A stretch of 64,000 nt of DNA from Halobacterium sp. DL1 (GTDB lineage: Archaea > Halobacteriota > Halobacteria > Halobacteriales > Halobacteriaceae): assembly GCA_000230955.3 (NCBI GenBank), contig CP007060.1, forward strand, positions 2,046,001-2,110,000, written 5' to 3'. The stretch's first letter is position 1. Each line of letters begins with the position of its first letter. Of this stretch, positions 9,694 to 50,011 are shown in pieces. A model generated the notes under the pieces. It was given only the letters and a program-made list of their open reading frames with translations, had not been told where the DNA came from and did not search any database. A program made the position numbers and the translations under genes.

Positions 9694-10713
9694 ATGAACG
9701 TGGACCTGAAACCTCTCGACCAGCAGGTGCTGGTCATCACGGGCGCGACCTCCGGCATCGGGCTGGCGACCGCGCGCATGGCAGCCGAGCGCGGCGCGAA
9801 AGTGGTGCTCGCCGCCCGCAGCGAGGACTCGCTGGCCGAACTGGCCGAGGAGATTACGACCGTGGGCGGCGACGCGACGTACGTCGTCGCGGACGTGCGG
9901 AACCGCGAGGACGTCCGCGAAATCGCCCGCACGGCCGAGGAGACGTACGGCGGCTTCGACACGTGGGTCAACGTCGCGGGCGCGTTCCTCTACGGCAGAC
10001 TCGAGGACACGCCCGTCGAGGAGATGCGCGAGCAGTTCGAGACGAACGTCTGGGGGCTGCTGTACGGCAGCCTCGAGGCCGCCGACCACCTGAAGGGACG
10101 GGGCGGCGCCATCGTCAACATCGGCAGCGTCGTCTCCGACCGCGCCATCCCGCTGCAGGGGAGTTACTCCGCGTCCAAGCACGCCGTCAAGGGGTTCACC
10201 GACGCGCTCCGGATGGAACTGGAGGAGGAGGGTGCCCCCATCTCCGTGACGCTCGTCAAACCCGCGGCCATCGACACGCCGTACCCCGAGCACGCGAAGA
10301 ACTACATGGACGAGGAGGCGGCGCTCCCGCCGCCCGTCTACGCCCCAGAGACGGCCGCGCGTGCCATCCTGCAGGCCGCCGAACAGCCCCAGCGGGACGT
10401 CTTCGTCGGCGGCGGCGCGAAGGGAATGGCGGTGCTGGGCAACTACGCCGCGAGCCTCACTGACCGGGTGATGGAGGCCACGTTCTTCGACCAGCAGACG
10501 ACCGGCCGGCCGCCGTCCCAGCCCGACCGGAGCGGCATCGACGAGTCGGTCGGCGACCTCGAACAGCGGGGCGACCACGAGGGCCACGTCGCGAAGTCCA
10601 GCGCCTACACCCGGCTCTCGCAGGGCGGCTCCTCGTCCGGGCGGGCGCTACTGAGCGCCGGCATCGTCGCTGCGGGGTTCTACGGCGCCTACCGGATGCT
10701 CCGTGGACGGTGA
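9694..10713 (+). CDS. short-chain dehydrogenase/reductase with C-terminal membrane anchor
   Basis: A 339-residue SDR oxidoreductase. The cofactor site ITGATSGIGLAT is at 15-26, NVAG at 93-96, and the catalytic triad S145, Y158, K162 sits in IGSVVSDRAIPLQGSYSASKHA. The SDR core ends near 260. The tail is linker-like and closes with a hydrophobic stretch (LLSAGIVAAGFYGAYRML) and a basic end, suggesting a membrane anchor. Substrate unknown. The start is ATG 9694; the frame is open further back, but the core begins properly here. Confidence 0.9.
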   Translation: MNVDLKPLDQQVLVITGATSGIGLATARMAAERGAKVVLAARSEDSLAELAEEITTVGGDATYVVADVRNREDVREIARTAEETYGGFDTWVNVAGAFLYGRLEDTPVEEMREQFETNVWGLLYGSLEAADHLKGRGGAIVNIGSVVSDRAIPLQGSYSASKHAVKGFTDALRMELEEEGAPISVTLVKPAAIDTPYPEHAKNYMDEEAALPPPVYAPETAARAILQAAEQPQRDVFVGGGAKGMAVLGNYAASLTDRVMEATFFDQQTTGRPPSQPDRSGIDESVGDLEQRGDHEGHVAKSSAYTRLSQGGSSSGRALLSAGIVAAGFYGAYRMLRGR

Positions 10714-10749
10714 CTACGGCAGCGGCTACGGCGTGAGAATGTCGCCCGC

Positions 10750-11070
10750 GACACTAACGACCGACCTCATCCGTGGGCGGCGTGCCCCGTTGGCCGGGAA
10801 ACCCTCGTGGCGGGCGGGCGACCTCGTTGAGGTCGCCGAGTGGCGAGCCGGTGAAACCGGCGAGCCGGGTGGCGCATAGCGCCACCAGATGCCGAGCCGA
10901 CTTGCGCCGTCTCGGCGAGTGATTCGTGACGTGAATCGACCGGACGCTGCGGGCGCCGACCGGGCGCGGTGCGGACGCCAGCCGGGAACCGAAGTTCCGT
11001 ATCGCACGCCGGGGTTCTCCGAGCGTCATCGCGTCCGCGTGGACGAACTCGGTCGGGGACAAACGGCGCG
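10750..11070 (+). ncRNA. candidate structured RNA or hairpin array (unassigned)
   Basis: The 390-bp gap between the SDR gene and the regulator at 11104 holds no plausible protein but many strong stem-loops: 10818-10836 (8 bp, 3-nt loop), 10847-10861 (5 bp, tgaaa loop, with facing GA steps below it and a further ggc/gcc stem), 10868-10886 (8 bp, ata loop), 10891-10916 (6 bp), 10921-10937, 10985-10998 (5 bp, cgaa loop) and 11032-11045. A 6-bp closing pair (ccgacc at 10761-10766 with ggtcgg near 11050) could tie the ends. I looked for RNase P and SRP RNA landmarks and did not find them. The strand is a guess, since stems are symmetric; the GA steps and purine loops favour plus. Confidence 0.35.
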
Positions 11071-11103
11071 CACTCGGACGTAGGGACCCGCGTAGAAAGA
11101 GGG

Positions 11104-11331
11104 TTACGCCCCGTCCTCGTCGAGGGCGTACACCTGCTGGCGGCTCTCACAGAGCCCGCAGACGCACTCCGCGAGGCCCGGGTCGGCGAGTTCGGCGAGC
11201 GCCTCGTTGGCCGTCTCCTCGGAGAGGCGCGCCTCCTCGGCCACCTCCGCGGGGGAGAGCGGGCCGCAGTTGTCCAGTACGACGCGCGCGAGCTTCGCCG
11301 CGCACGACAGCGTCCCGGACTCGCTCATCAT
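11104..11331 (-). CDS. small winged-helix regulator with a C-terminal cysteine cluster
   Basis: A 75-residue protein starting MMSESGTLSCAAKLARVVLDNCGPLSPAEVAEEARLS; the helix-turn-helix is about 25-60. The C-terminus ECVCGLCES carries three closely spaced cysteines, with more near the N-terminus (C10, C21), which could bind a metal or sense redox state. The start is uncertain: ATGs at 11328 and 11331, and a longer frame from 11355. It is divergent from the dehydrogenase at 11430. Target unknown. Confidence 0.75.
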   Translation of the reverse strand: MMSESGTLSCAAKLARVVLDNCGPLSPAEVAEEARLSEETANEALAELADPGLAECVCGLCESRQQVYALDEDGA

Positions 11332-11429
11332 TCGACCGTACTCTACTCGCGTCAAAAACCCTTCGTAAACCGGCGAGTCGGGTGCGAGTCGCGGAACGCT
11401 TACGGCTCGCCGCGTCGACCACCCAGACC

Positions 11430-48340: not shown

Positions 48341-50011
48341 TTACTCGTCGAGCCAGACGCGCTCGAAGAACCAGAGCGTGTCGTACGGGTAGTTGAAGTT
48401 CTCCACGGACGGCTGGAACGCCGACGTGATGTTCTGCCAGTACGGGTAGTACTTGCCCGCCTCCTCGTTGTTGATCTCGTAGATGCGCTTGTACTTCTGG
48501 TAGCGCTCCTCGCGGTCGGTCGTCTGCCGGGCCTCTGTGAGGAGCGTCTGGATCTCGTCGTTGACGTAGTTGCCGTAGTTGAAGAACGCGCCGTCGGTGA
48601 GGTTGACGGTGAGCACCTGGTCGGGGTCGTACATCCCGTCGAAGGCGCCCGCCGAGAAGCCGAACTCGAAGTTCGTGGTGCGCTGGAACTGCGTGCTCTT
48701 GTCGACCAGCCGGAGCTCGTGCTCGAGACCGATGGTGTCAGCGAGCTGGGCCTGGAGCACCTCGTAGGCCTTGATGTCGCGTTCGAGGCCCTGGTTGGCG
48801 TAGTTCGTGAACGAGATCTCCGAGGCGTCGACGCCCGCCTCGTCGAGCAGTTCGTTCGCGCGCTCGACGTTCTGGCCCTCGAAGGGGTCGTCGAGTTCGT
48901 CGATGTTCCAGCCGGTCGCGGGCGCGAGCGGCTGGTTGTTGGTGTTCTCGGCGGTGCCGCGGAAGACGACCTTCCGGTAGGCCTCCCAGTCGATGGCGTG
49001 CAGAACGGCCTTCCGGACCCGCGGGTCGTCGAACGGCGGTTTCTGGGTGTTGAACTGGAAGATGCCCATGAACCCGCCGGGGCCGGTGCGGCTAGTCTCC
49101 AGGGAGTCGCTGTTGCGGATGCTCTCGTCGTCCTTTGCGGGGACGACGTCGATCCAGTGGAGTTCGCCCTGGCGAAGTGCCTGGAGCTTCGTGCCGTCGT
49201 CCGGGTAGATGTTCAGCCGGAGTTCGTCGAGGTACGGGAGCGTGTTGCCGTCGTCGTCGGTCTTCCAGTAGTCGTCGAAGGCCTCCAGGTAGACGTGGTC
49301 GCCCTGCACCCACTCGGCGAGCTGGAACGGGCCGGAGCCGACCGGGTTCTGGGACATGTCGCCCTCCTCGTCGGCCTTCTTGTTGACGATGCCGACGACG
49401 AAGCCGACGTTGGATTCGAGCGACGCGAACGGCTTGTCACCGGTGTCGAAGACGGCGGTGTGCTCGTCGCGGGCCTCGACGCTGACCTGCTGGGAGAACA
49501 GCAGGTTCGCGGTGTGCTGCGCGTTGGCCTGCATCGTCTCGAACGTGTGCTTGACGTCCGTCGCGGTCACCGGTTCGCCGTTGTGGAAGACGGCGTCCTC
49601 CGCGAGGTCGAAGACGAGCGTCGTCTCGTCCTCCCACTCCCAGGCGGTCGCGAGGTCGCCGACCAGCTTGAGCTGGTCGTCCTGGATCTCGTACCGGAGG
49701 AGCTTCGAGTAGATATTGTACATCACCTGCATCGACTGCAGGCTGGTGACCGAGCGCCCGTCGAGCGTGAGGACGCCGACGTTCATGCCCGCGTTCAGCG
49801 TGCCGCCGGTCTGTATCTCGGCGGCCTCGGTGGTCGTGGAGTCGTCAGGGGAGTCGCTGTCGGTGGTCGTCGTGCTGTCCGAGTCGGAACCGCCGCCGAG
49901 ACAGCCAGCCAGGCCGAGCAGCCCCGCTGCCGGGCCGAGCGTCTTCAGCAGGTCCCGGCGGCTCGTAGAGGAAACGTCGTCTACGAGAACTTTCTCAGTA
50001 CGCTTTGCCAT
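48341..50011 (-). CDS. dipeptide/oligopeptide ABC transporter, substrate-binding lipoprotein
   Basis: A 556-residue family-5 solute-binding protein. STSRRDLLKTLGPAAGLLGLAGCLGGG is a Tat signal ending in a lipobox, so it is anchored outside the cell. A long Thr/Ser/Asp linker follows, then the binding domain (YSKLLRYEIQDDQLKLVGDLATAW, NPVGSGPFQLAEW, DDPRVRKAVLHAIDWEAYRK). It is divergent from the permease/ATPase genes at 51542-55446, with dipeptidase copy 2 in between. A TATA-like tract on the minus strand (50032-50039) precedes ATG 50011. Confidence 0.93.
   Translation of the reverse strand: MAKRTEKVLVDDVSSTSRRDLLKTLGPAAGLLGLAGCLGGGSDSDSTTTTDSDSPDDSTTTEAAEIQTGGTLNAGMNVGVLTLDGRSVTSLQSMQVMYNIYSKLLRYEIQDDQLKLVGDLATAWEWEDETTLVFDLAEDAVFHNGEPVTATDVKHTFETMQANAQHTANLLFSQQVSVEARDEHTAVFDTGDKPFASLESNVGFVVGIVNKKADEEGDMSQNPVGSGPFQLAEWVQGDHVYLEAFDDYWKTDDDGNTLPYLDELRLNIYPDDGTKLQALRQGELHWIDVVPAKDDESIRNSDSLETSRTGPGGFMGIFQFNTQKPPFDDPRVRKAVLHAIDWEAYRKVVFRGTAENTNNQPLAPATGWNIDELDDPFEGQNVERANELLDEAGVDASEISFTNYANQGLERDIKAYEVLQAQLADTIGLEHELRLVDKSTQFQRTTNFEFGFSAGAFDGMYDPDQVLTVNLTDGAFFNYGNYVNDEIQTLLTEARQTTDREERYQKYKRIYEINNEEAGKYYPYWQNITSAFQPSVENFNYPYDTLWFFERVWLDE

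Follow-up and report, generated by a model that had tools for sequence, protein, structure and literature searches.

A two-hairpin box H/ACA guide RNA in a hairpin-dense intergenic region of Halobacterium sp. DL1

A hairpin-dense region between two genes

Does the hairpin-dense DNA between two genes of Halobacterium sp. DL1 encode an RNA and, if so, on which strand and of which family? The locus lies in the window, the whole stretch of 64,000 nucleotides that was analysed, and an earlier note made from its letters had proposed a new structured RNA, read on the plus strand. On the evidence below, we hold with a probability of about 96% that this region carries, on its minus strand, the gene of a two-hairpin box H/ACA guide RNA that has its own promoter and uridines of 23S rRNA as its targets.

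The intergenic region (10714-11103, 390 nt) is bounded by a plus-strand and a minus-strand gene:

9694..10713, plus strand: short-chain dehydrogenase gene, convergent neighbour, outside the RNA
11104..11355, minus strand: 83-aa winged-helix-like gene, upstream on the same strand as the RNA and outside it

The upstream 83-aa gene is DUF7342-like by a match below the cut-off. Relative to dinucleotide shuffles, the intergenic region folded better on each strand (z = -2.41 on both), with 1 and 0 of 100 shuffles on the two strands folding as well, which bears out the dense hairpins described earlier. Being equal on both strands, this score leaves the strand undecided by folding alone. No conserved protein reading of the region was found, in agreement with the earlier note, and the comparison of the region with Rfam gave no match at threshold. 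Weak matches to SAH, guanidine-III and RNaseP-T in the region were all far below threshold and were rejected. Size and GC content are all that would recommend the reading of the region as RNase P RNA or SRP RNA, and its probability is negligible, as both RNAs were located elsewhere in the genome as single matches (149.5 and 179.7 bits); the earlier note had likewise set both aside.

Conservation, strand and promoter

In a DNA search, 48 of 59 relatives shared the region, in the form of two conserved blocks with a variable middle between them. R1, a plus-strand covariance model made from the sequences of 20 of the 48 relatives, matched 381 of the 392 genomes of the order, including 342 of 345 good genomes, nearly always with one copy each, and at the phylum level it matched methanogen genomes over the full model length. 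An exception to the single-copy rule is the genome G251, with two copies (C1:1714657-1714853 and C1:3469976-3470172) of 183.8 bits each. The earlier note had also offered dispersed haloarchaeal hairpin repeats as a simpler explanation. The variable middle, which in Halobacterium is indeed an array of hairpins, lends this reading of repeats that carry no RNA function some appeal, but at the order level the element is nearly always a single copy with conserved pockets and covarying stems, and the hairpin module of the array is not dispersed. When scattered copies of the hairpins were looked for, the whole query matched its own genome once and the hairpin pattern of the middle proved rare in the genus, leaving the repeat explanation unsupported and, in our judgement, extremely unlikely.

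The Rfam family HgcG (RF00064) coincided with R1 at the loci L050 (88.9 bits), L042 (52.6 bits) and L033 (22.2 bits), each time on the strand opposite to R1, and a phylum-wide HgcG search gave other coincident places, for example in G623, G542, G625 and G456. The position of HgcG on the strand opposite R1 at the shared loci indicates that the real RNA is on the minus strand. After this overlap, a plus-strand reading with helices P1-P5 was dropped, and R1, which had found homologs but in antisense, gave way to R2, a minus-strand covariance model built from 30 haloarchaeal sequences only. In the window, R2 in RNA sense matched 11076..10736 of the minus strand over its full length (1-194) with 107 bits (E 3.9e-28). 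R2 recovered all ten of the Rfam HgcG loci tested (18-31 bits) on the HgcG strand, with a 3' end within a few nt of the HgcG 3' base, and found 20 of 20 other distant Halobacteriota loci.

The variable stem pairs, when read on the minus strand, comprised 54 G-U against 5 A-C (p 2e-11), and this excess settles the strand independently. An alignment of haloarchaeal loci (A3) showed 98.0% of stem cells paired, and all six helices covary. Covariation had been named beforehand as a check that would support an RNA, and the alignment supplied it: in 15 of 31 pairs both partners had changed, and none of 500 shuffles did equally well.

The RNA and its parts, together with the upstream signals, are placed as follows, all on the minus strand:

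11081..11098, minus: core promoter by position, from the profile of 66 loci
11093-11098, minus: TATA-like TTTCTA, weak in the window
11081-11083, minus: -10 element CTA
10736..11076, minus: whole gene of the two-hairpin box H/ACA guide RNA (R2 match)
11000..11073, minus: HP1, the 5' hairpin, homolog of Pab40/Pf7 stem II (covariation, fold, conserved arm)
11065-11071 with 11004-11010, minus: HP1 lower stem
11060-11064, minus: HP1 left pocket arm
11012-11016, minus: HP1 right pocket arm AACCC, nearly invariant in 65 loci
11000-11002, minus: HP1 box AUA
10817..10999, minus: variable spacer between HP1 and HP2, a hairpin array (comparison across haloarchaea)
10740..10816, minus: HP2, the 3' hairpin, homolog of Pab40/Pf7 stem III (covariation, invariant motifs, helix-69 complementarity)
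within 10798-10809, minus: HP2 left arm GAGGGUU
within 10752-10760, minus: HP2 right arm GUUAG
near 10765-10772, minus: GAUGA of the predicted HP2 K-turn
10740-10742, minus: HP2 box ACA

On the minus strand the order is thus HP1, a spacer of 183 nt, and HP2. The hairpin density first described at 10750-11070 is real, and the true extent of the RNA is about 10736-11076. Through the alignment of 66 loci on the first base of HP1, we observed AT peaks upstream of HP1 in RNA sense at -34/-33, -28..-25 and -11/-10, with an AT content of 95-97% at -27/-26 and 91% at -10. These peaks reproduce the archaeal promoter profile of BRE, TATA and -10 elements. A start at the beginning of an H/ACA motif has a parallel in Pyrococcus, where the Pab40 transcript also begins at the first position of such a motif (PMC4652768).

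A plus-strand transcript that forms a new structured RNA without relation to any known family would account for the plus-strand folding of the intergenic region (z -2.41), for the homologs that R1 also finds, and for the GNNA loops and tandem G-A of the spacer hairpins on that strand. We regard it as very improbable: the A-C mismatches of the plus strand turn into G-U on the minus strand, a promoter profile was looked for on the plus strand of the same 66 loci and none was found, HgcG matches the minus strand, and R2 scores above R1 at all 20 distant loci. In isolation, HP2 folds as expected on the minus strand, while on the plus strand it is no better than shuffles (z -0.03). The first reading on the plus strand therefore gives way to the minus strand, which the HgcG strand, the G-U count and the promoter all support.

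Guide hairpins and predicted 23S rRNA targets

For the box H/ACA guide RNA, the six covarying helices and the isolated folds revealed in each hairpin the lower stem, internal pocket and upper stem of archaeal H/ACA RNAs; HP1 alone folded on the minus strand with z -2.98. Few letters are as well conserved as those of the pocket arms (AACCC for HP1, GAGGGTT with GTTAGTG for HP2), and in the haloarchaeal loci the HP2 motifs GAGGGTT, GTTAGTG and GATGA are invariant. The GATGA of the predicted K-turn, in the upper stem, is nearly invariant in HP1 as well, and the predicted K-turn of HP2 in the window has, on the strand opposite GATGA, AA where most relatives carry GA. Following the lower stem, an ACA or ATA was present in 61 of 65 rows for HP1 (ACA 53, ATA 8) and in 66 of 66 for HP2, and the right arm begins 14 nt (HP1) or 16 nt (HP2) before this ANA box, within the range of about 13-16 nt of the class.

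Pocket complementarity was scored against the 546 uridines of the 23S rRNA of the same genome. The HP2 pocket paired with U1946 through 7+4 bp, ranking first of the 546, and with U1948 through 6+4 bp, ranking third of the 546 under one arm definition. These two uridines lie in helix 69 (E. coli 1915/1917, literature 1956/1958), so that HP2 has the two-part complementarity expected of an H/ACA guide towards a known pseudouridine site, and U1946/U1948, its best match by complementarity, are its predicted targets. The HP1 pocket paired with U2611 through 3+5 bp, first under one arm definition and not under another. U2611, in the peptidyl-transferase centre (E. coli 2586, literature 2621), is the likely target of HP1, an assignment that leans more on the literature than on complementarity. 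The genes for Cbf5, Nop10 and Gar1 are present in the genome, and the Cbf5 frame is intact (296 aa); an apparent stop inside Cbf5 was merely the gene's own stop.

In the mechanism that we propose, the guide RNA would be transcribed from its own promoter, with a start near the first HP1 stem. By analogy with the family and with published work, Cbf5-Nop10-Gar1 would bind each hairpin, with L7Ae at the K-turn, and each pocket would pair with the 23S rRNA to either side of a target uridine, HP2 thereby positioning U1946 and U1948 of helix 69 and HP1, as the family and literature suggest, positioning U2611. Cbf5 would then isomerise the positioned uridines to pseudouridine, as expected for this family from the literature, and the spacer would be a fast-evolving linker between HP1 and HP2.

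A weak HP2-like match was also observed at 48889-48953 of the window (R2, 15.9 bits), antisense to a gene like those for ABC-transporter substrate-binding proteins; it is probably due to chance.

Relation to known RNAs and the variable spacer

The window RNA is the haloarchaeal H/ACA pseudouridylation guide RNA HP1/HP2, which is already known (Grosjean et al. 2008, PMC2584109); of the proposal of a new structured RNA, a discrete, conserved and covarying RNA is upheld and its novelty is not. In H. volcanii and other halobacteria, HP1 and HP2 were described as homologous to Pf7 stems II and III with a long spacer between them, and their predicted targets as 2621 and 1956/1958 (PMC2584109). A later source, which lists them as Hvo1 and Hvo2, includes H. 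volcanii in its set of experimentally validated organisms and cites Blaby 2011 for this (PMC4652768). The window RNA shares with this sRNA the two hairpins, the long spacer, the predicted targets and the halobacterial occurrence (PMC2584109, PMC4652768). We see no essential difference between the two, the spacer in the window being a long hairpin array. The Hvo1/Hvo2 RNA is, we believe, the same as sR-h45 of the Gupta-lab literature.

By sequence and structure, the window RNA is homologous to stems II and III of Pab40/Pf7/HgcG (RF00064), with the same strand, order and 3' end. Unlike HgcG, it is without stem I, its hairpins are separated by the spacer, and its score is below the Rfam threshold; by the position of the promoter the RNA starts at HP1, which is stem II, so that the three hairpins of HgcG are not all present. 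Stem I is likewise absent from the haloarchaeal RNA described previously (PMC2584109). The eukaryotic H/ACA snoRNA U19 and yeast snR191 modify the equivalent helix-69 uridines (PMC2584109), which is a functional analogy only.

RF00064 had no match over the gathering threshold in the window and none at E 0.001 in the genome itself or in the other listed haloarchaea, and it also missed most of the methanogen and DPANN loci tested. The region looked new because Rfam misses this RNA in haloarchaea; the Rfam scan that the earlier note proposed found nothing at threshold, yet the RNA is a homolog of RF00064 stems II-III. This is an annotation gap, and the RNA-sense alignment together with R2 suffices to extend RF00064. 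Guides for helix-69 pseudouridylation are therefore conserved well beyond Thermococcales. On eight Woesearchaeota/Nanoarchaeota contigs (L130, L133, L138, L146, L149, L155, L181 and L197), R2 matched a single HP2-like hairpin at 22-39 bits; Rfam made no call on these hairpins, and HP1 was not visible upstream.

The spacer is about 10-250 nt long across haloarchaea, nearly absent at the locus L028, and long and hairpin-rich in Halobacterium, where it accounts for the bulk of the hairpins first noted. In the window and at L001-L013 it consists of alternating, genus-specific hairpins, one type having, on the plus strand, GNNA-like loops together with tandem G-A; by reading, both features look tidier on that strand. 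The tandem-GA internal loop of the earlier note and the GNNA-like loops belong to the plus-strand reading of the spacer hairpins, and in the actual transcript they become U-C mismatches and UNNC loops.

It is possible, if unlikely, that the array is a second functional module of extra guide or regulatory hairpins, adding to the guide RNA rather than replacing it. Compensated spacer hairpins are kept across the genus and a spacer-like module occurs in two other families, but the hairpin copy number differs between species, the spacer all but disappears at L028, and no reported function for the array was found. That the spacer is instead a separate element, such as an antisense structure or one at the DNA level, carried within a housekeeping guide RNA seems to us quite unlikely. 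The modules resembling spacer hairpins in the other families are single ones, at L017 and L020. In three Halobacterium genomes, a spacer-type hairpin is found at a distance of about 40-44 kb from the guide RNA (G001 C1:1644578, G009 C1:1672221 and G012 C2:676444) and is perhaps another conserved element.

In the family f8, some genomes (L066, L072, L073 and L082) have sequence matching the 23S/5S end of the rRNA operon no more than about 1 kb away from the guide RNA, a proximity that may explain many hits near contig ends.
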